From NCBI GenBank assembly GCA_017303395.1, contig JAFLBN010000006.1, positions 124,001-188,000 of the forward strand: 64,000 nt of DNA. Reading direction: 5' to 3'. The translations under genes were made by a program, and so were the position numbers. This DNA is from Chitinophagales bacterium (lineage in GTDB: Bacteria; Bacteroidota; Bacteroidia; Chitinophagales; Chitinophagaceae). The notes beneath the pieces are model-generated. The model was not told where the DNA came from, did no database searches, and saw nothing but the letters and a program-made list of their open reading frames with translations. This document shows positions 8,521 to 25,718 of this stretch, piece by piece; within the stretch, counting starts at the first letter, position 1, and every line of letters begins with the position of its first letter.

Positions 8521-10533
8521 CTACTTCAGCGTGTAGCGCACCCCCACAAATCCCCTTATGCCCTGTAGTGAGGCGTAGTTATAACTTGGGTCGAAGGTAT
8601 AGCCCTGTGGATTGTCTACAGGGTCGTTTACTTTTTTGTCAAATGGGTCGTGAGAGCGCAGAATAGGGTATTTGGGCACAAAATTAAACAGGTTCTTTAC
8701 GCCACCATATACCTCTACTGTTTTCCAAATCTTTTTGGTCAGCTGAATATTTGCTATACAAAACCAAGGGGAGTATTCCGGGCGGAAGTCGTTGTGCAAC
8801 AGTGGCAAGCGCATTGGCCCGTTCCATTTTCCAGTTAAGTCTATTGTATAACCGTGTGGTAGTGTATAGGTAAAGGCAAAATTGCCACTCCACTGCGGTG
8901 CCTGTATCTGGGTGGTTTTAAAAAGTCCAGTACCTGTATCTTCCATCTGGTAGACATTCATATAGGTAATGCCTGCCATGATTCGCAACGGGAAGCTGAA
9001 GTTGCCTTCCAGATTTAATGAAATGCCGCGTGATATAGCATGCCCTTTCAGATTGTCGTAAATAATCTTATTAGGGTCGGTATCAAAATCCCCGTTTATC
9101 TTATTAGTGAAGTAAGAATAAAATGCGGTAACATCTACATTAGTAAAGTCCTTACCAATAACAATTTTAGTATTGTAGTTCAGGTTGGTATTGTAAGAGC
9201 GTTCAGGGTTTAATGTCTCTTTTATCACTACTTGTCGTGCACCTGTTAGTGCAGCATGGTCTTCAGTGAATAGATTTACAACCCGGTAGCCTGTGCCCAA
9301 ACTGGTGCGTATGGTATTGTTGCTATTGGGAGCCCATTTGTACGCAATACGTGGAGAGTGTATACTACCGTGGTTTTTATCATAGTCGTAGCGGTAACCA
9401 AACAGTATTTTGTTTTTGGGTGTTACAGTCCATTCGTCCTGAATAAAGATGCCGGGCAGGGGAGTAATGGCAGGCATATTTGTTTTGCCGTCTGCAGACA
9501 GTGTTGCAGGCGTATTATCATCATACACTGTATATCTGTAAGATGCACCTAGCAATAAGCTGTGTTTATCATTTACACGTTTGTCCCAATAGGCTTGTAT
9601 AAATGCTACCTGTTGGTTGGCGTTGTAGGGTGTAGTACCATAGTAGCTATCCTGATAATGATAGTTGTACGAGTACTGCGTCATTATTTTTTCTCGAAAT
9701 GGTAGTTGATACATACCAATCAGCTCTATCCGCTTGGTTGTTATGCTTTCGCCATATATACTATCTGTACCTCGCCATACAGGTGTCCAGTTCATCTGTC
9801 CTCCCCAACGGTCTTCATAAACATATCTTGCAGCCAGCGATGCTGTTTTATAATCTTTACGTATCAGGTTCCATTTATTGAATACAGATACACGGTTTTG
9901 AAGGGTAACGTCGGTAAAACCATCTTTATTATTATCGATGGGATTGCTATAGTTGAAATAGCTCACACCCAACATATTGTTTAGCTTTCCCAGTTTGAAT
10001 TTGGTAGATATATCGGCATTATATTCCTGCCAATTGGTAGCAAATACATCTGCACTTAACAGCGGTGCATTATTCGGGTTTCGGGTTATGACATTAATAA
10101 TGCCACCCATAGCCTCAGAGCCATATAACGATGATGCAGGCCCTTTTACAACCTCAATACGGTCTACCATGCTATTGGGTATTCCATTTAGTCCGTAAAC
10201 TGTAGAAAGCGCACTGATGATAGGCATACCGTCTATCAGTATCATCGTATATGGGCCTTCCATGCCGTTGATATGTATATCTCCCGTATTGCAAATATTG
10301 CAGTTTAGCTGTGGTTGTACACCATTCAGCATGCCTACAGCTTCAAAAAGACTTGGTGTCGGATTTTTCTTGAAAAACTTTGCTGTTACTATTTCTACAG
10401 GTATAGGGCTGTCCTTGCGGCTCATTTCCTTCATAGTCCCTGTAACAACAACATCACTCAATGTGTCTTTGCTGCTCTGAGCTATGCCTTGTGTGCCTAT
10501 TGTTAGTGATAATATCAGTATCTGCCATTTCAT
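8521..10533 (-). CDS. TonB-dependent outer-membrane receptor, metal or siderophore type
   Basis: About 670 residues: a signal peptide (MKWQILILSLTIG), a plug domain with a TonB-box-like DVVVTGTMK, and a 22-strand barrel ending in the aromatic-rich strand GFVGVRYTLK. The plug holds the typical IDGMPI and GSEAMGGIINVITR segments of BtuB/FepA-like receptors. There is no N-terminal carboxypeptidase-like domain and no SusD partner, so polysaccharide uptake is unlikely. An unusual C-N-I-C pair precedes GDIHINGMEGPYTM in the plug. The first possible start is a TTG, but it lies inside the -7 promoter element, so the ATG nine bases later is chosen. The substrate is not identified; iron or another metal is inferred from the palindrome over the promoter. 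Confidence 0.9.
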   Translation of the reverse strand: MKWQILILSLTIGTQGIAQSSKDTLSDVVVTGTMKEMSRKDSPIPVEIVTAKFFKKNPTPSLFEAVGMLNGVQPQLNCNICNTGDIHINGMEGPYTMILIDGMPIISALSTVYGLNGIPNSMVDRIEVVKGPASSLYGSEAMGGIINVITRNPNNAPLLSADVFATNWQEYNADISTKFKLGKLNNMLGVSYFNYSNPIDNNKDGFTDVTLQNRVSVFNKWNLIRKDYKTASLAARYVYEDRWGGQMNWTPVWRGTDSIYGESITTKRIELIGMYQLPFREKIMTQYSYNYHYQDSYYGTTPYNANQQVAFIQAYWDKRVNDKHSLLLGASYRYTVYDDNTPATLSADGKTNMPAITPLPGIFIQDEWTVTPKNKILFGYRYDYDKNHGSIHSPRIAYKWAPNSNNTIRTSLGTGYRVVNLFTEDHAALTGARQVVIKETLNPERSYNTNLNYNTKIVIGKDFTNVDVTAFYSYFTNKINGDFDTDPNKIIYDNLKGHAISRGISLNLEGNFSFPLRIMAGITYMNVYQMEDTGTGLFKTTQIQAPQWSGNFAFTYTLPHGYTIDLTGKWNGPMRLPLLHNDFRPEYSPWFCIANIQLTKKIWKTVEVYGGVKNLFNFVPKYPILRSHDPFDKKVNDPVDNPQGYTFDPSYNYASLQGIRGFVGVRYTLK

Positions 10534-10539
10534 TAGGTG

Positions 10540-10570
10540 CAAATGTATAAATATTTTAGACTAATCTAAA
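10540..10570 (-). promoter_or_regulatory. TonB receptor promoter with overlapping palindromic operator
   Basis: Minus strand: -7 element TACATTTG at 10540-10547, 19 bases, and a -33-like TTTA at 10567-10570. The spacer and -33 are covered by the inverted repeat TTTAGACTAATCTAAA (10555-10570, arms TTTAGA/TCTAAA). That form resembles boxes of DtxR/MntR-type metal repressors. A bound repressor would occlude RNA polymerase. The start codon lies only seven bases from the -7 element, implying a nearly leaderless mRNA. Confidence 0.55.
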
Positions 10571-10748: not shown

Positions 10749-13700
10749 ATGAAAAAGCAATTTTTATTCATCATGGTGCTGCTGAGTTACGCATTTGCTG
10801 CAAATGCGCAAAACTTCAACACACCTATAATAGTAGATGACAACGGAGACGTTGGTCAGGCTACGCAGTTAAATATAGTAAATGGCAATCCTGCAATGTC
10901 CTATTACGATGTTACCAATCAGGATTTGATGTACGTGCGTGCTAATGACGTTAACGGTATATCATGGGGAACACCTGTAAGGGTTGTTTCTACCAATAGT
11001 GTTGCTGCTTGGAACTTCCTTGCAGTTGTTAATGGTTATCCAGCAATATGCTTTTATGACGCTACTGATAAAGACCTGAAGTATGTTAGGGCTACAAATG
11101 CCAATGGTACTGCATGGGGTACAGTTCAAACATTAGTGTCTTCGGGTGATGTTGGCAGGAACTGTTTTATGATGATTGTAAACAGCTATCCGGCAATATG
11201 CTATTACGACCTTTCAAACGGTGACCTAGAGTATATACGTGCCAACGATGTTAATGGATCTTCATGGGGTAGCCCGGTTGTTGTGTCTTCTACCGGTGAC
11301 GTTGGTAAATGGGGGGTAATTGCAATAGTAAATGGTAACCCTGCTATATCGTTTTATGACCTTACAAACGGAGACTTGAAATATGTTCGTGCCAACGATG
11401 CTTCGGGTTCTACATGGGGTAGTGCTTTAACTGTTCAGTCTACAGGTGATGTTGGTCAATACTCTAACCTGATAGTTACAAACGGTATGCCTGCAATGTC
11501 TTATTACGATGTTACTAATGGCGATTTGAAATTTGTTCGTGCTACAAATGCTAATGGTAGCACTTGGGGGACACCTGTTACTGTTACATCTAATGGTGAT
11601 GTAGGTAAATATAGCTCTATGCCGCTACTGTTCGGTTATCCTACTATCGTGTATTACGATGCCACCAACCAAAAAGTAGGCTTTGTTCGTGCTTCAGATG
11701 TGAATGGTGCAACATGGTCTGCTCCCTTACTGCCTGATATGAATACCAATAATGGCATATATGTACCTAATATATGTGGTGTAAATGGTTATCCGGCAAT
11801 ATCATACTACGATGCTACAAATACTTGCCTGAAATACATGCAGCTTTGTAATACATGGACAGGCGGTACAAGTACTGATTGGGCAACCTCATCAAACTGG
11901 GCTTTTGGCAGTACTCCAACTACAATTGAGCCTATTCTTATACCCAATGTAACCAATGATCCTATTGTGTCTTCAAGTGTTACGGTTGGTAATATGATTA
12001 TGCAATCTGGCTCTTTAGTTTCGTTGAACAGTACTGGTACTTCAGTAACATTCACTGCTTCTGGTACCGTAACAAATAACGGCATATTTTCTATAGGTTC
12101 TGGTACATTAGCATTGGGTGGTGCTGTTAGTGGCACAGGTACAATAAGCGCTACAAGCAGTTCTAAACTCAACATCAATGCGGCAGTTGGTACATTATAT
12201 TTTACAAGTGGTGCAAACACCTTAGGTGCAGTTACACTTAGTAGTAGTGGTTCAGCAACTTTAGGTAATGCCATGAACATAGATGCTACAGGTGTATTAA
12301 CAGTAAATAGCGGTGGCGTACTTACATCAAACGGTAACCTAACACTGAAATCTACTGCGTCAGGTACAGCTCGTGTAGCCCAAGGTTCTAGTTCAGGTAA
12401 CTATATCATTGGTAACGTAAATACAGAGACATATATCCCTGGTGGACGCAGAGCATTCCGTTTTGTATGCCATCCTTTTTCAAGCTCAATAGGTCTTAAT
12501 CAATTGACTGATGATATCGATATTACAGGTAATGGCGGTGGCCTTAATGGCTTTGATTACCAACCAGGTAACCCTGCATCTGCATTCTGGTATAATCCGC
12601 TAACGGGTAATGGCTCTACTGTCAATGATATTGGCTGGACACCATTTACTCATACTAATGGTACGGGTACTAATGCATGGAATCAATGCGAAGCTGCGCG
12701 CATATTGATACGCGGTTCTAAAGGACAAGGCTTGTATACAGGGGCATATACTCCTAATGCAGTTACGCTTGACATGACTGGTCCATTGAATCAGGGTAAT
12801 GTAACTATTAACTTAACTAAAGGTTCTAACACACCATTTGTATTGGTTGGCAATCCGTTTATGAGTCCGATAAATGTATTGTTGACAACGCGTACAAGTG
12901 TTGGAGCAAACATCATTGTATGGGATGCTAATCAGGGTACACGTGGTGCTTATAACAGTATTCCTTTGCTTAGCAGCATTATAGTGCCCGCAGGTGCATC
13001 ATTTGTTACTACAGTACTTACCAATGGTACCATGACATTCCCTGAATCGTGTAAGACATCTGCCACTGCCCTTGGTTTGCTGAAGACTACTGAGGCTAAG
13101 CCAATACAAGTAGAATTGAAGATGATGGATAGCACTATATTCTGGGATAGGTTGCTGGTTTTATTTAATGATACTACTAAGTCGAAATACGACTTCAGAG
13201 ATTGTCTCAAAATGGCAAACCCTGATATCAGTATGTACACATTCAGCGATGAAGACTCTGTATTGTCTATAGATTGTCGTAAACATGTTGATAGCCAGAT
13301 AATACGCATGGGTATGTATGTGCCTGTAGCTAAAAAATACAGGTTGGTATTAGGTGAATATAATATGGTACTTGGTACAAGGATTTATCTGCGCGATAAA
13401 TACCTGAATGTAAAAGAAGAAATAACTCCGGGTTTTGAATATTGGTTTGATATAACAAGCGATCCTGCGACACAAGGCGACAACCGTTTTGAACTTGTTA
13501 TGGAAGGTAAACCAACTAAAACCGGTAACCCTACAACAAACGTAAATACTATTGCCAACAATAAAGCTACAGAACAGACAAAAGGCTTCGAAGTATTGAT
13601 AGTGCCAAATCCTGCACAGTCTGTTGCTAAGCTGAAATACAAAGGTGATAATGCAAAAGAATTGCACATTACTATTACCAATATGATGGGTGCAGTAGTA

Positions 13701-13823
13701 GCAACTTTCGATGCTAAAGGAACAGAGATAAGCTTGCCAATACAAAACCTGCAAACAGGCATGTATATGGTTGAAGTAAATAATGGTAAAGAAACAGCTG
13801 TTGAAAAGCTTATCAGACAATAA
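10749..13823 (+). CDS. T9SS-secreted protein with seven-fold propeller-like repeats
   Basis: 1024 residues. A signal peptide (MKKQFLFIMVLLSYAFAANA) is followed by seven tandem units of about 49 residues (about 20-370). Each is built as TGDVG, hydrophobic strand, NGxPAISYYD, xTNGDLKYVRA, NGSxWG. Seven such units suggest a seven-bladed beta propeller. Then come a TWTGG/TDWATSSNW segment, a Ser/Thr/Gly-rich beta-helix-like region (about 400-540), a globular region, and a C-terminal T9SS type A sorting domain (VPNPAQS ... GMYMVEVNNGKETAVEKLIRQ). It is expected at the cell surface or in the medium. No catalytic motif is recognised; binding to a polymer or partner is inference. Confidence 0.88.
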   Translation: MKKQFLFIMVLLSYAFAANAQNFNTPIIVDDNGDVGQATQLNIVNGNPAMSYYDVTNQDLMYVRANDVNGISWGTPVRVVSTNSVAAWNFLAVVNGYPAICFYDATDKDLKYVRATNANGTAWGTVQTLVSSGDVGRNCFMMIVNSYPAICYYDLSNGDLEYIRANDVNGSSWGSPVVVSSTGDVGKWGVIAIVNGNPAISFYDLTNGDLKYVRANDASGSTWGSALTVQSTGDVGQYSNLIVTNGMPAMSYYDVTNGDLKFVRATNANGSTWGTPVTVTSNGDVGKYSSMPLLFGYPTIVYYDATNQKVGFVRASDVNGATWSAPLLPDMNTNNGIYVPNICGVNGYPAISYYDATNTCLKYMQLCNTWTGGTSTDWATSSNWAFGSTPTTIEPILIPNVTNDPIVSSSVTVGNMIMQSGSLVSLNSTGTSVTFTASGTVTNNGIFSIGSGTLALGGAVSGTGTISATSSSKLNINAAVGTLYFTSGANTLGAVTLSSSGSATLGNAMNIDATGVLTVNSGGVLTSNGNLTLKSTASGTARVAQGSSSGNYIIGNVNTETYIPGGRRAFRFVCHPFSSSIGLNQLTDDIDITGNGGGLNGFDYQPGNPASAFWYNPLTGNGSTVNDIGWTPFTHTNGTGTNAWNQCEAARILIRGSKGQGLYTGAYTPNAVTLDMTGPLNQGNVTINLTKGSNTPFVLVGNPFMSPINVLLTTRTSVGANIIVWDANQGTRGAYNSIPLLSSIIVPAGASFVTTVLTNGTMTFPESCKTSATALGLLKTTEAKPIQVELKMMDSTIFWDRLLVLFNDTTKSKYDFRDCLKMANPDISMYTFSDEDSVLSIDCRKHVDSQIIRMGMYVPVAKKYRLVLGEYNMVLGTRIYLRDKYLNVKEEITPGFEYWFDITSDPATQGDNRFELVMEGKPTKTGNPTTNVNTIANNKATEQTKGFEVLIVPNPAQSVAKLKYKGDNAKELHITITNMMGAVVATFDAKGTEISLPIQNLQTGMYMVEVNNGKETAVEKLIRQ
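10806..11850 (+). repeat. Seven tandem coding repeats of about 147 bases
   Basis: Diverged tandem units encode the blades of the surface protein. The best conserved bases fall in the YYDxTNGDLKYVRA and NGSTWG segments. Unit 7 loses the second half of the pattern. This is a protein-level repeat. Confidence 0.8.
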
Positions 13824-13828
13824 TAATA

Positions 13829-13860
13829 CAGGGTAGGGTAAAATGTATTGCCCTATCCTG
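13829..13860 (+). terminator. Hairpin after the T9SS repeat gene
   Basis: Ten-base stem CAGGGTAGGG/CCCTATCCTG with one non-Watson-Crick pair and a 12-base loop. It starts six bases after the stop but lacks a strong T run, so it is a weak terminator call. Confidence 0.45.
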
Positions 13861-13914
13861 TTAATGCTTTAATAAACAGATGTGAAGGACTGGTTAACGA
13901 GGGCTTGAATTTAG

Positions 13915-13943
13915 GTTGAAGAACTCCTCCAATAATACCTTTA
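13915..13943 (+). promoter_or_regulatory. Possible promoter of the 65-residue sorting-tail protein
   Basis: GTTG, 17 bases, TACCTTTA: close to the Bacteroidota consensus, ending 32 bases before the ATG. A CTGGTTAAC half-site lies just upstream (13890-13898), similar to the GTTAAC-containing sites near other exosortase-locus genes. Confidence 0.4.
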
Positions 13944-13974
13944 CAATATTGAAACGAGTATTAAAAAAATAAGT

Positions 13975-14172
13975 ATGAAAAAGATATTATCAATATTTGC
14001 GTTGACAGTGTGTATGACAATGATAGGTATAGATGCCTCAGCATTCGGTCCGGGTTTCGATCCGGATGTTCCCCCATATGCTGCGCCAATAGATGAAGGT
14101 CTGGGAATATTGGCTGTAATAGGCCTTGCATATGGTGCATGGGCTTATAAAAAACGCGAAGCAACGGCATAG
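13975..14172 (+). CDS. Small exosortase-type sorting-signal protein (PID-CTERM-like)
   Basis: 65 residues. An N-terminal signal peptide (MKKILSIFALTVCMTM) is followed by a short Pro/Asp-rich core (FGPGFDPDVPPYAA). The tail is PIDEG, a hydrophobic helix (LGILAVIGLAYGAWAY) and a basic end (KKREATA). This three-part tail is the architecture of exosortase substrates. The PID motif fits the Bacteroidota PID-CTERM class. The mature product would be only about 15-20 residues. It lies 2 kb from the exosortase gene on the opposite strand and is closed by a strong terminator. It lacks the cysteines of its two relatives. Confidence 0.75.
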   Translation: MKKILSIFALTVCMTMIGIDASAFGPGFDPDVPPYAAPIDEGLGILAVIGLAYGAWAYKKREATA

Positions 14173-15366: not shown

Positions 15367-15759
15367 TCATCTATTTTGCTGGCTCTTTACGACCTTGTTT
15401 ATTATATATAACATACCATATGGCAATGGGCTGGTGAAGAACAATCGAAGGCGGCTTATCTGGTCAAGAAATCCTATCCCGAATACGCTTGTTTTCCATT
15501 GTATCAGTCCAACTACCATTATTATTACTAAAACTGCAGCATAAGCTACAAACCATAGCTTTTGTATCCAAGAGACACCGTAGGCCTTCCAGCCCAGATA
15601 ACCTACCGGGGTAATAACTGCTAAAATACCTAAATGGCCTATTTGCCTTTTGATAGGGGATAATTGCTGAGCGTGACCCTCTGTAAAGTACTGATAATCG
15701 AGCCAGCATAACGCTGTTACTGCGATGAATATCAGCCAGAATATAGCCTTGCTACGCAT
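15367..15759 (-). CDS. Integral membrane protein, exosortase-associated
   Basis: 130 residues with three or four predicted helices (AIFWLIFIAVTALCWL, GHLGILAVITPVGYLGW, LWFVAYAAVLVIIMVVGL) and a basic C terminus. The ATG overlaps the end of the exosortase gene by eight bases (ATGCGTAG), so translation is probably coupled. Bacteroidota exosortases are often paired with a small membrane protein of unknown role (for example the XrtF-associated protein); this gene occupies that position. No catalytic residues are recognised. A role in substrate handling or in transfer of the cleaved product is inference. Confidence 0.8.
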   Translation of the reverse strand: MRSKAIFWLIFIAVTALCWLDYQYFTEGHAQQLSPIKRQIGHLGILAVITPVGYLGWKAYGVSWIQKLWFVAYAAVLVIIMVVGLIQWKTSVFGIGFLDQISRLRLFFTSPLPYGMLYIINKVVKSQQNR

Positions 15760-16288
15760 GCTTTACAGATGGCTTTTTGGTGTACAAAACCCAGCCGTAG
15801 AATACGACTGCATATATTACCAACTTGAAAGCATAGTGGTGTGCAAAGTCTGTAAGATCGTTATGATTGATATACATAACAGCCAATACTGCACAGCGGA
15901 TGACGTTTAATATATAGATAGCCAGAAAACCAACAATGCTATATATCAGTATCTTTTTAAAGTTAGACGGGAAACATAGCAAAAAGCCAATGTACAGTGC
16001 GGCTAATTCCAAACCATTACATTGGTGGCCTATGCTGACAGAAGCTACGCCATCTATATATACTACAGTACCATATTGTGTAATGTTGGGATAGAACCAG
16101 GATAGCATTTCTGCTGTTCCGATCTGTACCAATTTACTCAACTGGTTATCAGGTATCCCCGATGGCCCTAAAACAAATTTGTATAACAGCGTCCACCCCA
16201 ATATCAACAATGCACCACGTATAATAATGGGCCTGATATTGGCTGGCAATATCTTATTGATTGTTTTAGGGGTGTTGCTTTCTGTCAT
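15752..16288 (-). CDS. Exosortase/archaeosortase-family transpeptidase
   Basis: 178-residue polytopic membrane protein with the three exosortase active-site signatures. These are Cys90 in GHQCNGLELAALYIGFLL, Arg131 in LNVIRCAVLAV, and His150/His151 in DFAHHYAF. The family cleaves substrates at a short C-terminal motif in front of a membrane helix, and is thought to attach the product to a lipid or polysaccharide. A longer reading frame begins at 16369 but would overlap the upstream gene. The ATG at 16288 is preceded by GAGGAAAAGAGAAA and gives the usual compact protein. It lies 28 bases after a tiny Cys-rich gene with an exosortase-type tail and overlaps the next membrane protein gene, forming a three-gene operon. 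The exact Xrt subtype cannot be set by eye. Confidence 0.85.
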   Translation of the reverse strand: MTESNTPKTINKILPANIRPIIIRGALLILGWTLLYKFVLGPSGIPDNQLSKLVQIGTAEMLSWFYPNITQYGTVVYIDGVASVSIGHQCNGLELAALYIGFLLCFPSNFKKILIYSIVGFLAIYILNVIRCAVLAVMYINHNDLTDFAHHYAFKLVIYAVVFYGWVLYTKKPSVKHA

Positions 16289-16316
16289 TTTCTCTTTTCC
16301 TCGTATATGAATGTCG

Positions 16317-16544
16317 CTATTTGTCTTTTTTGTTATCCCTGAACCTCTTAACACCAAGGCCTGCGGCACCAGCTATCAGCATGATGGCAGCACCTTCCAA
16401 AGGTACAGCATAACCACCACCACCACAGTTGCATCCCCAACCGTACTTCGAATAGCACCATGTTGTGTGAGCAAAAGAGCTTAGTGGAAGCGTTACCATA
16501 GCAGTAACCAATGTTACTTTTACTATGCTTGCAAATCTTTTCAT
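16317..16544 (-). CDS. Tiny Cys/Gly-rich exosortase substrate, operon copy
   Basis: 75 residues. Signal peptide (MKRFASIVKVTLVTAMVTLP, cleavage near SSFA), core HTTWCYSKYGWGCNCGGGG, then YAVPLEG, a Gly/Ala-rich membrane helix (AAIMLIAGAAGLGV) and a basic tail (KRFRDNKKDK). The tail is the three-part exosortase sorting signal, with PLEG in place of PIDG. Three cysteines sit in the mature part, in the pattern W-C ... G-C-N-C-G, which is repeated in the neighbouring gene. An upstream in-frame start at 16583 would add 13 non-signal residues, so the ATG at 16544 is chosen. It is first in the operon with the exosortase. Confidence 0.8.
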   Translation of the reverse strand: MKRFASIVKVTLVTAMVTLPLSSFAHTTWCYSKYGWGCNCGGGGYAVPLEGAAIMLIAGAAGLGVKRFRDNKKDK

Positions 16545-16580
16545 ACAGAGTAGTTTTTTATTTTTCGAAAAAATAGGCTG

Positions 16581-16612
16581 CAAATATCTGTCTTTTTAGA
16601 ATGTTTGACAAC
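16581..16612 (-). promoter_or_regulatory. Probable promoter of the exosortase operon
   Basis: Minus strand: GTTG, 20 bases, GATATTTG. The spacing fits the Bacteroidota promoter and TATTTG is shared with the promoter of the next substrate gene. It ends 37 bases before the ATG at 16544. Confidence 0.45.
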
Positions 16613-16654
16613 TTTTTTCATCGAACAGGTTGATGAAACGAGGATATGAAATAG

Positions 16655-16891
16655 TTAATTTTCAGCGTTTTTCTGTTTGTTTTTTCTGTAGCGTCTGATG
16701 CCATAGCCTACACCTGCAATCGCCAGATAACTTAAGCCACCATCAAGAGGAGCGCAATATGGATTATAACCACAGTTGCAACCTCCACCACAACGACTGT
16801 TGCACCAATTACTATGTGCACTGGCTGCGATAGGCAATACCAACATAGCACCTACCAACAATAGTTTTGAAGAAAATAGGAGTTTTTTCAT
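16655..16891 (-). CDS. Tiny Cys/Gly-rich exosortase substrate, second copy
   Basis: 78 residues. Signal peptide (MKKLLFSSKLLLVGAMLVLP, cleavage near ASA), core HSNWCNSRCGGGCNCGYNPYC, then APLDGG, a membrane helix (LSYLAIAGVGYGI) and a strongly basic tail (RRYRKNKQKNAEN). It aligns with the operon copy over its whole length: AH[ST]xWCxSxxGxGCNCG and Y-x-x-P-L-[DE]-G. It has five cysteines in the mature core instead of three. It has its own promoter and a perfect inverted repeat over the -33 element. It could be a structural or signalling micropeptide; that is inference. Confidence 0.8.
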   Translation of the reverse strand: MKKLLFSSKLLLVGAMLVLPIAASAHSNWCNSRCGGGCNCGYNPYCAPLDGGLSYLAIAGVGYGIRRYRKNKQKNAEN

Positions 16892-21215: not shown

Positions 21216-24200
21216 ATGGAAAGGAACAAAAAGGTAGTATTTCTTTTATTGTTAACAACATTAATATGTTTGTTTTTGCAAACAGTTGTTGCTCAGTCTG
21301 TTGCCACAAAGTTCGGAACAATACGTTTATCAGAGAATGCTCAACGGTGGTATGATAGTGTATTAAATACAACTGCTGAAGGTGATTACTTGGTTTTATT
21401 GCATTTCAGACATTTACCTGCGCAACGCGAACGTGCTCAACTTTTGGCATACGGGGTGGAAATTGGTGATTATTTAGGCGGATTCACTTACGATGGTATA
21501 ATAAGTGTTAAAAAGGAAATTAGAGCCATAGCCCCTGAAATATTATACGGAATCAGCCCCTTTAATGATACATGGAAGGTCGAACAAGCATTACTTGCAA
21601 GGCTTAATAAACCTGATAAAGAGCCTCTAAAGTTGCTAACATCAGCAACTATCACAAACTATAATGATATTGAAACATTTATTTCATCAATTGGGGGTAC
21701 TATTGATGATGCCAATTTGAAATCTATAGGAATATTCCGGATTACTATACCTAAAAGCTCTTTTAATAAGCTAAAGGCGCATCATGCTATCAAGCGATTA
21801 TCGTTGGTGCAGGAACCACAAATACTAAACTATGAGTCGAAAGCTGTGTCTAAAGCCAACTTAGCCAACCTATCAGCTATTTATGGTGGATATGGACTGA
21901 AGGGGAATGGCATTATGATAGGTATAGGTGACAATAGTGCTGCAAATTATCATATAGATTTAAAAGATAGGGGAATTAATTACAACCCCCAACCATATGC
22001 AAACCATGGCGTACACATCAGCGGTATAGTTAGTGGTGCTGGTATAGCTAATGTGAAAGGTGAGGGTGTGGCTCCTGAAGCAAGATTTATTAATCATTTA
22101 TTTAGTGGTATTTGGGAGCAGACGGGTGTTTTTCATGATCAGTATAATATGACAATTACTAACAACTCTTATGCTGCAGTTATAAGGGATTGTGACTATG
22201 CCGGTACCTATAATACTTATTCTGAAGCTATAGATAAGTTGTCATTACAATACAAAGATGTACTGCATGTATTTGCTGCCGGCAATGATGGGCTGATAAC
22301 TTGCAATCCATACCCGGCAGGATATGCAACTGTTGTGGGGGCTTATCAGGCTGCCAAAAACTGTTTGGTTGTTACCAGTACGGATAAAAATTACATAAAT
22401 GCTAAAGATGGCGGCAGAGGTCCAATTAAAGATGGAAGACTAAAACCTGAAATAACAGCAGTTGGGGTAGATGTTATGTCTACAACTAAAGTAGACTCTT
22501 ATTTGGTGTCTGGTGGTACCAGTATGGCATGCCCGGGTGTAGCAGGAGGACTGGCACTTTTGTCTGAAAGGTATAAGCAAATAAACGGTAATGTAAATGC
22601 ACCTGCGAATATCTTAAAGGCCTTGATACTGAATACATCTACAGATATTGGTAATCCTGGGCCCGACTATACATTTGGTTTTGGTTTTATGAATGTTGCC
22701 AAAGCCATAAATGCATTGAATAATAATCAGTACATATCAGGTTCAGTAAACAATGGGGGGCAAATAACATACAATGTAAATGTACCACCCAATACAGCGC
22801 AACTAAAGGTGATGTTATTGTGGTTTGACGAACCTGCAAGTACAGCATCAACCAAACAGTTGGTAAACGACTTGGACGTAATAGTAACCACACCTGCCTC
22901 AGTCATTCACAAACCTCTTATTTTAGATGCAACACCTGCTAATATTCTGAAAAATGCTGTAGAAGGAGATGATAGGCTAAATAATACGGAACAGATAGTC
23001 ATCAACAATCCGCAGGCAGGTAACTATGTGGTTACCATAAAAGGGTTCAACGTACCATCGGCAAGTCAGGATTTTATCCTTACTTATGATTTTATTGAGC
23101 AAGGGGTTAAATTAACATATCCTACTGCAGGTGCACAAGTTGCGGCAGGCGACAGTCTCCGGATTTATTGGGATGCATCTGAAAGTACTAATACACAGCG
23201 CATAGAGTATTCCACTGACGGTGGCAGCAACTGGCAGCAAATTGTTAATAATATTGATGCCTCACAAAGGTATTACACTTGGTTTGTACCTGTTGGTATT
23301 AGCAGTGGTAGGTGCATAATGAGAGTAGTAAGAAATGTGACGAATGAACAAAGTAGTAGCGGCTTGTTTGTAATTAATCCGATGCCTGTAGTATCACTCG
23401 CGGCTATACAATGCCCTGAGTATATAAATATACAATGGCAAGCAATTCCTAATGCATCGGCCTATGAGGTAATGCGGAAAATAGGCACTGCAATGGTTGT
23501 TACAGATACGGTAACTACAACAGAGTATGTTTACGGAGGGTTAGCACCTGATAGTATTTACTATGTTGCAGTAAGGCCTATAATAGATGGGATGAGTGGA
23601 TATCGCAGCCTTGCTGCAAAACGTATGCCCAATGACGGAGATTGTACCGGGAGTATTTCCGACGGAGATATTTCTGTAAGAAAAATTGATAACCCTGTAT
23701 CAGGCAGGCTATTGACGAGTAACGCACTTACCAATAAAGAAGAATTGACTATAGCATTGCGCAATCTGGATGACATGCCGGTAGCTTCTTTCAGAGTCGG
23801 GTATAGTATTAACGGCGGTGCATGGAAATCAAAAGACTTTAATATTACATTGCCCGCAAACAACATTACACCTGTGAAAGTAGATACCGTTGATTTGTCT
23901 GCAGCCGGGCAGTATAAGCTTGTATTGGCTATTCAAAATTTATCTGTAACTGACCCTCGGAGTATTAATGATACCATTACAACTATTGTTCGTCAATTGA
24001 ATAACCCTGCGGTTAATCTCAATACTGTTGTTGAAGAAAACTTTGAAAGCTGGCCAATTATTGACACACAACTACCAATATTTGGTGTTAGCCCCGACGA
24101 ACGTTGGGACTACAGTAATGCAAATGATACTTGCCGAATGAGGAGTTTTGTGAAAAAAGACATCACAATATCAGGCAACAGATCTGTTAGTTTAGACGCG

Positions 24201-25718
24201 TCTATACATTCATTGAATAATCACAGAAATACGTTGACAGGCACGTACAATCTAGCTAATCACAATGCCAACAATGATGAAGTTCGGTATGAGTTTGATT
24301 ATATATTGCACGGCTATACACCTGACGATGATAGCAATGCTGTGTATGTAAGAGGGGATGATACTAAATCATGGGTTCGTCTAATGTCATACGACGTTAA
24401 ACTGGCAGGAACAGGTAAAACCGGTAAATCAGGCTCGTTATCTGTTACAGATGCATTGCTTGGTGCTAGCCAAAATTTTAGCACCAGCAGTCAGGTGATG
24501 TTTATGCAGAATGATCTGTCGCTTATCAGTAAACAAAACTTTGGAAGAGGTGTCACAATAGATAACGTGAAAATTTATACTGTACAGAATGATATACAGT
24601 TGATAGCTGTTGTATCTCCAATAGTATCTGAATGTGGATTAACAGGCCCGCAATCGTTGACTGTGAAAATAAGAAACGGAGTGAACCAACAACTTAATAA
24701 TGTACAGCTATATTATTCACTAGATAACGGAACAGTAGTAAATGAAACATTGACTTCCATAAATGGTAAACAAACAATGAACTACACGTTTAGTAACAAG
24801 ATAGATTTGACTAAAAATGGCAGGCATGTGTTGGATATATGGTTGTCTGTTGATGGAGATACATATTTGCTTAATGACAGTTTACTGAAGTACGAATTCT
24901 ATAATCAGCCATTAATTAAGACATATCCTTATATAGATGACTTTGAGGCTTCAAATGGTGGTTGGTATGCAAATGGTATAGACAATTCATGGAGCTATGG
25001 AGTAATAGCATCACCTAAAATAAATAAGGCAGCTAGTGGCATAAATGGTTGGAAAACCAATCTTACAGGTATTTATAACGACTATGAGCAGTCATATTTG
25101 TATTCACCTTGCTTTGATTTATCTGCATTACAAAATCCGACTTTCAGGTTCAAGCGAGCTGTTGATATAGAAAACTGTGGTGCTGTATTTTGCGATGGTG
25201 CATTTATGGAATATAGTATAAATGGAACTGAATGGCAAAAACTTGGTACATGGAGTGAGGGTAGTAACTGGTACAATGATACCCTCTATAATATGTGGTC
25301 TATAGAGAACAGCGTAAAGTGGCAGACATCATCTATCCCTTTGCCCAAAAAGGAATCAACATTGCGCCTGAGGTACCATTTCACATCAGACATGGGGGCC
25401 GAGCGTGAGGGTATAGCTGTAGATGATGTAGAGGTTTTTGATGATCTACCTAAAGTAGTTGAAAACAATTTGTTGAATGTAGTACCTAATCCTACCAAGG
25501 ATGGTAAAGTAACAATAGACTGGACAGCACACGGAGGTACTGTAATGGAATTGACGATATTCAATATTGTTGGTAATAAAGTATATGAAGCTAAAGCTAC
25601 CGCCAAAGAGGGGCGTAACTATACTACTTTGCAAACACCGAATTTTCAACCTGGTGTTTACCTCTATCACATCATGGTAGGCGATAAAAAGTACACCAGA
25701 AAGATTGTGTATTTGTAA
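21216..25718 (+). CDS. T9SS-secreted S8 subtilisin-like serine protease
   Basis: 1500 residues. Signal peptide, a prodomain-like segment (about 30-210), then a subtilase domain. The triad is Asp239 in IGIGDN, His264 in NHGVHISG and Ser436 in SGGTSMACPG, with an oxyanion-like Asn in the FAAGND segment. After the protease come a P-domain/jelly-roll-like region, an Ig-like segment, an Fn3-like segment (IQWQAIPNASAYEVMRK), and two lamin-G/MAM-like beta domains (WDYSNANDTCRM; SWSYGVIASPKINKAASG). A T9SS sorting domain ends it (VVPNPTKDGKVTIDW to RKIVYL). It is expected to be an extracellular or surface protease. Specificity is not predictable from sequence. Confidence 0.93.
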   Translation: MERNKKVVFLLLLTTLICLFLQTVVAQSVATKFGTIRLSENAQRWYDSVLNTTAEGDYLVLLHFRHLPAQRERAQLLAYGVEIGDYLGGFTYDGIISVKKEIRAIAPEILYGISPFNDTWKVEQALLARLNKPDKEPLKLLTSATITNYNDIETFISSIGGTIDDANLKSIGIFRITIPKSSFNKLKAHHAIKRLSLVQEPQILNYESKAVSKANLANLSAIYGGYGLKGNGIMIGIGDNSAANYHIDLKDRGINYNPQPYANHGVHISGIVSGAGIANVKGEGVAPEARFINHLFSGIWEQTGVFHDQYNMTITNNSYAAVIRDCDYAGTYNTYSEAIDKLSLQYKDVLHVFAAGNDGLITCNPYPAGYATVVGAYQAAKNCLVVTSTDKNYINAKDGGRGPIKDGRLKPEITAVGVDVMSTTKVDSYLVSGGTSMACPGVAGGLALLSERYKQINGNVNAPANILKALILNTSTDIGNPGPDYTFGFGFMNVAKAINALNNNQYISGSVNNGGQITYNVNVPPNTAQLKVMLLWFDEPASTASTKQLVNDLDVIVTTPASVIHKPLILDATPANILKNAVEGDDRLNNTEQIVINNPQAGNYVVTIKGFNVPSASQDFILTYDFIEQGVKLTYPTAGAQVAAGDSLRIYWDASESTNTQRIEYSTDGGSNWQQIVNNIDASQRYYTWFVPVGISSGRCIMRVVRNVTNEQSSSGLFVINPMPVVSLAAIQCPEYINIQWQAIPNASAYEVMRKIGTAMVVTDTVTTTEYVYGGLAPDSIYYVAVRPIIDGMSGYRSLAAKRMPNDGDCTGSISDGDISVRKIDNPVSGRLLTSNALTNKEELTIALRNLDDMPVASFRVGYSINGGAWKSKDFNITLPANNITPVKVDTVDLSAAGQYKLVLAIQNLSVTDPRSINDTITTIVRQLNNPAVNLNTVVEENFESWPIIDTQLPIFGVSPDERWDYSNANDTCRMRSFVKKDITISGNRSVSLDASIHSLNNHRNTLTGTYNLANHNANNDEVRYEFDYILHGYTPDDDSNAVYVRGDDTKSWVRLMSYDVKLAGTGKTGKSGSLSVTDALLGASQNFSTSSQVMFMQNDLSLISKQNFGRGVTIDNVKIYTVQNDIQLIAVVSPIVSECGLTGPQSLTVKIRNGVNQQLNNVQLYYSLDNGTVVNETLTSINGKQTMNYTFSNKIDLTKNGRHVLDIWLSVDGDTYLLNDSLLKYEFYNQPLIKTYPYIDDFEASNGGWYANGIDNSWSYGVIASPKINKAASGINGWKTNLTGIYNDYEQSYLYSPCFDLSALQNPTFRFKRAVDIENCGAVFCDGAFMEYSINGTEWQKLGTWSEGSNWYNDTLYNMWSIENSVKWQTSSIPLPKKESTLRLRYHFTSDMGAEREGIAVDDVEVFDDLPKVVENNLLNVVPNPTKDGKVTIDWTAHGGTVMELTIFNIVGNKVYEAKATAKEGRNYTTLQTPNFQPGVYLYHIMVGDKKYTRKIVYL

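Follow-up and report, generated by a model that had tools for sequence, protein, structure and literature searches.

An XrtX-like but divergent exosortase operon with two tiny Cys-rich PID-CTERM-type proteins in a Chitinophagales bacterium

Results

Gene organization of the exosortase operon. We analyzed a 64,000-nucleotide stretch of DNA (the window) from contig C41 of a Chitinophagales bacterium whose genome comprises 3.76 Mb in 44 contigs. Four genes lie in series on the minus strand: those of two micro-PID proteins, sub1 (16655 to 16891; 78 amino acids) and sub2 (16317 to 16544; 75 amino acids), an exosortase gene (15752 to 16288, with its ATG at 16288; 178 amino acids), and the gene of a membrane partner (15367 to 15759; 130 amino acids), a predicted helical bundle with S-P-L-P near its C terminus. 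An earlier sequence-only reading had placed four genes here, and all of them were present. The membrane protein gene overlaps that of the exosortase, as had been proposed, by 8 nt, and the remaining spacings are 110 nt (sub1 to sub2) and 28 nt (sub2 to exosortase). Inspection of the flanking sequence suggested a ribosomal S1 gene upstream, on the opposite strand, and rpsL-rpsG downstream, 84 nt off. The order exosortase-partner-rpsL was found in at least L041 to L046 and L053. Conservation of the gene order among related genomes shows that the four-gene set is not a chance arrangement.

A third micro-PID gene, sub3 (13975 to 14172, plus strand; 65 amino acids, GPGF type), lies outside the range covered by the sequence-only reading and was not mentioned there. 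It sits directly behind the gene of a 1,024-residue type IX secretion cargo (10749 to 13823, plus strand), which exceeds the cut-offs of both PF18962 (48 bits; cut-off, 27) and TIGR04183 (40.3 bits; cut-off, 23). The cargo/sub3 pair is convergent with the exosortase operon, and orthologues of sub3 are found next to the operon in L041 to L045. Two other genes of the window were noted: a 673-residue ORF on the minus strand (8521 to 10542) that reads as a TonB-dependent receptor, with a short Cys-containing NCNICN stretch in its plug region, and a 1,500-residue protein (21216 to 25718) that reads as a subtilisin-like protease and ends in a type IX tail (TIGR04183, 42.1 bits).

The 178-residue protein is related to XrtX. 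In HMM searches, the protein scored 52.2 bits against TIGR04178, the general superfamily model (cut-off, 23), and 25.8 bits against Pfam PF09721 (Exosortase_EpsH; cut-off, 25.7). Its nearest NCBIfam model was XrtX (NF046081), at 130.1 bits against a cut-off of 170, and it also remained under the cut-off of the XrtF model (62.6 bits; cut-off, 90). The XrtX cut-off is exceeded in only 2 of 149 genomes of the order. We aligned the window protein with 25 homologues, drawn from 26 loci with the fragment L066 left out. This revealed 17 invariant columns, including C90, N91, R131, D147, H150, and H151. The Cys, Arg, and His residues among them (Cys90, Arg131, and His150/151), which we take to be the catalytic residues of the exosortase, occupy the positions named in the sequence-only reading, and its assignment of the protein as an exosortase was borne out. 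All 26 exosortases match XrtX, XrtF, XrtY, XrtH, and TIGR04178 at E ≤ 0.001. The AlphaFold2 model (pLDDT 86) consists of helices and three short strands; no sequence relative was found in the PDB at E ≤ 1, and a fold search returned no match at E ≤ 0.001. As judged from its sequence, the 178-residue protein is a member of the exosortase/archaeosortase superfamily, XrtX-like but divergent.

The genome encodes three exosortases, the others being on contigs C34 and C42. The C42 enzyme is XrtY-like (114.9 bits; cut-off, 160). The C34 gene (L009, C34:248557-248982) lies directly behind a gene that reads as tsf, on a contig with no PID-CTERM match. A ribosomal neighborhood, as judged by eye, is seen for two exosortases, L009 behind its tsf-like gene and the window exosortase beside rpsL-rpsG.

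The membrane partner is a recurrent companion of the exosortase. Behind the exosortase, 22 of the 26 loci have a partner (106 to 144 residues in the alignment), and an ORF identifies one in L062 as well; no partner ORF was found in L054 to L056. The predicted structure is a helical bundle (pLDDT 92), and a fold search with it gave no match at E ≤ 0.001. The window partner had no NCBIfam match at E ≤ 1, and no NCBIfam family matched more than one of 23 partner proteins at E ≤ 0.1. We considered whether it might be the XrtX-associated membrane protein, NF046082 (cut-off, 75). This was ruled out: none of the 23 partners matched that model at E ≤ 0.1, and the best match in the genome (12.5 bits) lies at another place. 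Proteins that occupy the same slot in two other loci scored higher, with 60.8 bits in L131, beside an XrtX that exceeds its cut-off (G005), and 36.3 bits in L132, where the neighboring XrtX is just under its cut-off, at 167 bits (G008). Profile comparison linked the L133 partner to the window partner family (probability, 94.6) and did not link the L132 XrtX-side partner to it. In Pfam, DUF6168 was a weak hit for the partner (15.1 bits; cut-off, 27).

sub1 and sub2 carry PID-CTERM-like tails and a predicted 22-residue payload. sub1 comprises a signal peptide (residues 1 to 25), the mature stretch HSNWCNSRCGGGCNCGYNPYCA (22 amino acids), a PLDG motif, a helix, and a basic end; in sub2, the mature stretch HTTWCYSKYGWGCNCGGGGYAV (22 amino acids) is followed by PLEG, a helix, and a basic end. 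Cleavage after Ala25 is predicted for both from the -3/-1 rule alone. The motif starts at residue 48 in each, which leaves 22 residues past the predicted signal peptide and agrees with the mature piece of about 20 to 25 residues that had been proposed. The sequence-only reading had also given both proteins the three-part sorting tail. For sub1, this was upheld by PID-CTERM model NF046080 (38.5 bits; cut-off, 26), as it was for sub3 (29.1 bits); sub2, a paralogue 41% identical to sub1, fell below the cut-off (21.6 bits; 23.3 bits in the genome search). Across 11 Cys-rich sequences of the sub1 and sub2 types, His26, Cys30, Cys38, Cys40, Tyr45, P48, L49, and G51 are invariant. sub1 has a further Cys near the motif, Cys46, which occurs in none of the other 10 sequences, and a lipidated Cys at the cut site, of the MYXO-CTERM kind, was rejected.

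The selective constraint on each region was estimated as pN/pS with the motif excluded (its inclusion gave the same picture); these ratios are rough because pS is near saturation (0.45 to 0.85 by region). The signal, mature, and tail values were 0.42, 0.15, and 0.18 for sub2 (6 orthologues); 0.59, 0.08, and 0.35 for sub3 (6 orthologues); and 0.46, 0.40, and 0.40 for sub1 (5 orthologues; none in L043). The payloads of sub2 and sub3 are therefore under constraint, their mature values being well below those of their signal regions, and the idea that this holds for all three small proteins fails for sub1. sub1 keeps just the His and Cys pattern, and its payload is no more constrained than the rest of the protein. 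The short Cys-rich peptide proposed in the sequence-only reading gains support from the constraint on the sub2 payload.

Small size is general in the family and the Cys-rich payload is not. The genome has seven PID-CTERM-type genes, of 62 to 78 amino acids. All 48 PID-CTERM matches in the 149 genomes of the order lie in open frames of ≤144 codons, and among the matches listed for the phylum (395 genomes), 149 of 150 lie in frames of ≤200 codons, a few of them cut by contig ends. Micro-size as a special property of the window locus was thereby ruled out, and the view that exosortase substrates are normally larger, which had made these proteins seem surprising, does not apply to PID-CTERM proteins, nearly always micro-sized in this phylum sample. 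The sole long frame among the matches listed (G303:C1:2167132, L124; 995 codons) starts with what reads as a multi-helix membrane protein.

Payloads differ between lineages. Among the loci examined, the Cys-rich type with the H-C-CxC pattern was found only in the window and L041 to L045, and genome G676 encodes the two proteins also present in L044; a Cys-rich payload as the hallmark of the system was ruled out, since it is confined to a close clade. A search with the Cys-rich alignment matched 62 of 195 genomes of the family at E ≤ 0.001, many through the tail only, and scored >100 bits in just two of them, the present genome and G676. In G605, which is assigned to the same genus, this search gave an E value no better than 7.2e-5. 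No relative of the Cys-rich proteins was encoded at any of the 122 pattern matches in viral contigs. Elsewhere, the payload is a different Cys-rich stretch (L051), [TG]WG[RH]WDNYKPPTNN (L046 and L053), WWHGPPPPTA (L049), or WGNNNDNCND (L048), and other loci have poly-Pro, Gly-rich, Asn-rich, GPGF, or nearly empty payloads. The PID proteins of L054 to L056 have just seven residues ahead of the motif, and those of L072 and L094 (113 and 107 amino acids) carry longer payloads.

PID-CTERM genes co-occur with exosortase genes. In the order sample of 149 genomes, 30 have PID-CTERM, 61 have an exosortase, and 29 have both. An exosortase is thus present in 29 of the 30 PID-CTERM genomes, compared with 32 of the 119 without PID-CTERM (Fisher P = 7.5e-13, ignoring kinship), and the exception, G089, is 78% complete. 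The co-occurrence expected from the sequence-only reading is therefore seen, and gene order is conserved as well. At the level of single loci, upstream genes were screened by a script on general features, and PID-like ones were picked by eye. A PID-like micro-gene was present upstream of, and in the same orientation as, the exosortase at 17 of the 26 loci; upstream sequence of ≥700 nt was available for 24 loci, which include all 17. Fourteen of the 17 end 3 to 36 nt before the exosortase; in L060 the genes overlap by 1 nt, and in L058 and L057 they are 150 and 369 nt apart. Of the nine misses, seven had enough upstream sequence and no PID-like gene adjoining the exosortase (L052, L059, and L061 to L065), and two (L047 and L066) were without upstream sequence. 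Five of the seven PID genes of the present genome are located outside the window operon, and four of these five have no exosortase gene next to them.

Micro-PID genes frequently follow type IX cargo genes. We examined 64 PID loci (7 from the present genome and 57 that were mostly the best match per genome in the order and phylum searches), 60 of which could be resolved. In 35 of these 60, a home-made tail HMM detected a type IX secretion system (T9SS)-like tail that shares the strand of the PID gene and ends ≤200 nt upstream of it. The 39 matches to this HMM were without exception upstream and in the same orientation, with none downstream or antisense. The HMM was built from the same upstream ORFs, and TIGR04183 served as the independent check: it was matched by 33 of the 52 scanned ORFs upstream of PID genes (E ≤ 0.001). 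At the same threshold, seven of the 52 matched ogt and two matched the type C tail, the latter possibly among the 33. L067 and L071, which hold the same genes as L139 and L140, count in the 35 yet match no T9SS model. In the genus g39 (L070, L074, L076, L080, L084, L086, and L088), the micro-PID gene seemingly lies behind ogt and not behind a type IX cargo gene, these loci having been assigned from ORF length.

Five of the seven PID genes in the present genome directly follow a TIGR04183 gene. The cargo set is large, with at least 150 TIGR04183 tails in 3.76 Mb (150 of the 233 candidates were scored), and the binomial probability of such pairing arising by chance is about 3e-6 to 3e-5 (assuming 3,400 genes, at least 150 of them TIGR04183 genes). 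The cargos of the five pairs (window 10749-14172, C1, two on C40, and C42) are paralogous, and each is directly followed by a GPGF-type PID-CTERM gene of 62 to 65 amino acids. A model of the cargo core, comprising the 330 residues before the tail of these five, matched 22 of 42 long upstream ORFs at E ≤ 3.3e-9, 17 of them outside the building set; 210 shuffled sequences gave no match at E ≤ 0.1. In the present genome it found five copies at E ≤ 1e-5, which are those used to build it, and a micro-PID gene lies behind each. The cargo gene and the GPGF-type PID gene seem to form a two-gene unit that multiplies as a pair. At E ≤ 1e-8, the core occurs in only 6 of the 149 genomes of the order. A PID gene, in one case frameshifted, comes after 9 of its 16 copies there; the other 7 copies, of which G070 holds six and G125 (a genome without a PID or exosortase match) one, have none behind them. 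A strict tie between the core and PID genes holds in the present genome and fails in those two. G070 also has an exosortase gene (L135) and a PID-CTERM gene (L136) that adjoin genes reading as polysaccharide export and chain-length functions.

Some loci join all three elements. The order long ORF-PID-exosortase was found in L127, L130, L137, L138, L139, and L140 and, with the partner as well, in L133; a T9SS model confirmed the long ORF in L127, L130, and L133 and not in L139 and L140. L143 contains two cargo-PID pairs in tandem, and L141 has the order PID-cargo-PID-cargo, its first PID gene having no cargo before it. In G047 (C1:4716126 and C1:4720597; L128, L172, and L176), two cargo-PID pairs stand in tandem, the second PID copy being frameshifted.

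Discussion

The exosortase operon of the window belongs to a known kind; its enzyme is divergent, its partner falls outside existing models, and its two micro-substrates are Cys-rich. We favor, at a probability of roughly two in three, the reading that this is a dedicated operon whose own substrates are the two tiny PID-CTERM-type proteins and that it delivers their peptides to the envelope surface. sub1 and sub2 would be exported by the Sec pathway and, as their sequences suggest, lose the signal peptide after Ala25, and the C-terminal helix would retain each in the inner membrane with its basic end inside. By analogy with the family, the exosortase, with Cys90 as the nucleophile together with His150/151 and Arg131, would cut near P-L-[DE]-G, presumably assisted by the membrane partner. 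The new C terminus of the ~22-residue peptide would then probably be transferred onto an acceptor in the membrane, in the way proposed for ArtA, and a short peptide that starts with His and holds three invariant Cys residues would end at the envelope surface. Both the anchoring and this location we infer. A surface role is likely, since in Flavobacterium johnsoniae deletion of xrtF or Fjoh_1449 lowered sand colonization and biofilm, according to the accessible part of PMC10936215. What the payload does is a matter of guesswork: metal or redox chemistry through one His and three Cys residues may be imagined, as may aid to a type IX-secreted surface protein, an idea prompted by the gene pairing in the wider family.

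The nearest known relative is the XrtX/PID-CTERM system of NCBIfam (NF046081, NF046080, and NF046082). XrtX is by far the best model for the enzyme (130 bits; the next is XrtF, at 63), and the PID-CTERM tail, the membrane protein gene in the same slot, and the micro-substrate directly upstream are shared. Unlike that system, the window has an exosortase 40 bits under the cut-off, a partner with no match to NF046082, and two Cys-rich substrates. The exosortase F system of F. johnsoniae likewise combines an exosortase with a system-associated protein in Bacteroidota; the window enzyme, however, is below the XrtF cut-off, and its partner has no NCBIfam match. In the portion of PMC10936215 available, the substrates of exosortase F are left for future work. 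Archaeosortase ArtA with PGF-CTERM (Haloferax) shares the superfamily (TIGR04178) and the tripartite tail; it differs in its motif and in having substrates such as the S-layer glycoprotein. For ArtA, the available text of PMC7157517 proposes a thioester followed by transfer to a lipid amine. The resemblance to MYXO-CTERM lies in a tail that is cut by a membrane protease and in a Cys near the cut site, as in sub1; Myxosortase, in contrast, is a CPBP family protease (PMC11980579, as far as its text was accessible), and here the motif-adjacent Cys is not conserved and is absent from sub2. Our literature search, with subscription papers largely outside it, found nothing on PID-CTERM, exosortase micro-substrates, or exosortase small proteins in Bacteroidota, and the accessible portions of the literature consulted do not report PID-CTERM processing.

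Three other explanations deserve consideration. The micro-PID proteins may be helpers of type IX cargo, the processed peptide acting as a tether, tag, or assembly factor for the surface protein encoded upstream; the Cys-rich pair of the window would then be a variant whose cargo gene lies elsewhere, perhaps the convergent 10749-13823. This explanation, compatible with the one we favor, draws on the TIGR04183 matches of 33 of 52 upstream ORFs, the tails at 35 of 60 loci with all 39 matches upstream on the same strand, the pairing of 5 of 7 PID genes and 5 of 5 core copies in the present genome, the long ORF-PID-exosortase orders, and the tandem pairs of L143. It is nevertheless tentative, although possible: no cargo gene precedes sub1 or sub2 themselves, 7 of 16 core copies (six in G070, one in G125) lack a PID gene behind them, 25 of 60 loci lack a tail at ≤200 nt, and 7 of 52 upstream ORFs match ogt. 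In addition, the tail HMM derives from the same ORFs, L067 and L071 match no T9SS model, and in L141 a PID gene precedes the cargo.

It also might be that the peptide is cut free rather than anchored and serves as a secreted signal or a metal-scavenging peptide matured by the exosortase. A very short payload that is constrained in sub2 and sub3, has invariant His and Cys residues, and varies in type between lineages would suit such a role, as would the TonB-receptor-like ORF some 5 kb off at 8521-10542, which was recognized by eye and which no test ties to the operon. We consider release unlikely, however, since the accessible text of PMC7157517 associates ArtA, an archaeosortase relative, with lipid anchoring and the direct neighbors of the operon appear by eye to be ribosomal genes, with no receptor or transporter. 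Least probable, in our estimation, is that the small proteins escape cleavage altogether and are simply membrane micro-proteins that control the exosortase. They are tiny, have a hydrophobic stretch at each end, and adjoin the exosortase gene, and sub2 is under the PID-CTERM cut-off, but three-part tails of this kind are found repeatedly throughout the phylum, constraint in sub2 and sub3 is strongest, or close to strongest, in the mature stretch, and of the seven PID genes in this genome, five are found outside the window operon, four with no exosortase gene beside them. A dedicated sorting operon is our preferred explanation of the four genes. To call it self-contained, as the sequence-only reading did, is too strong for a genome with three exosortases and seven PID-CTERM genes, five of which are behind type IX cargo genes.

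The interest of the operon lies in its conserved His/Cys pattern and in the pairing of the PID family with type IX cargo. With a payload of about 22 residues, the reaction product would be small enough for direct mass spectrometry, and the acceptor used by an exosortase could therefore be identified. The pairing of micro-PID genes with type IX cargo genes, sometimes within cargo-PID-exosortase operons, is new here; the accessible text of PMC7468200, PMC10936215, and PMC7662799 does not describe it. We speculate, as a rather doubtful extension, that two surface-sorting systems are joined in Bacteroidota, with an exosortase-made anchored peptide serving a specific neighboring type IX protein as a tether, tag, or assembly factor, and that the window lineage carries a derived version made metal or redox active by its His and three Cys residues. 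The repeated pairing of PID and type IX cargo genes provides a concrete, testable hypothesis for the role of these tiny proteins.
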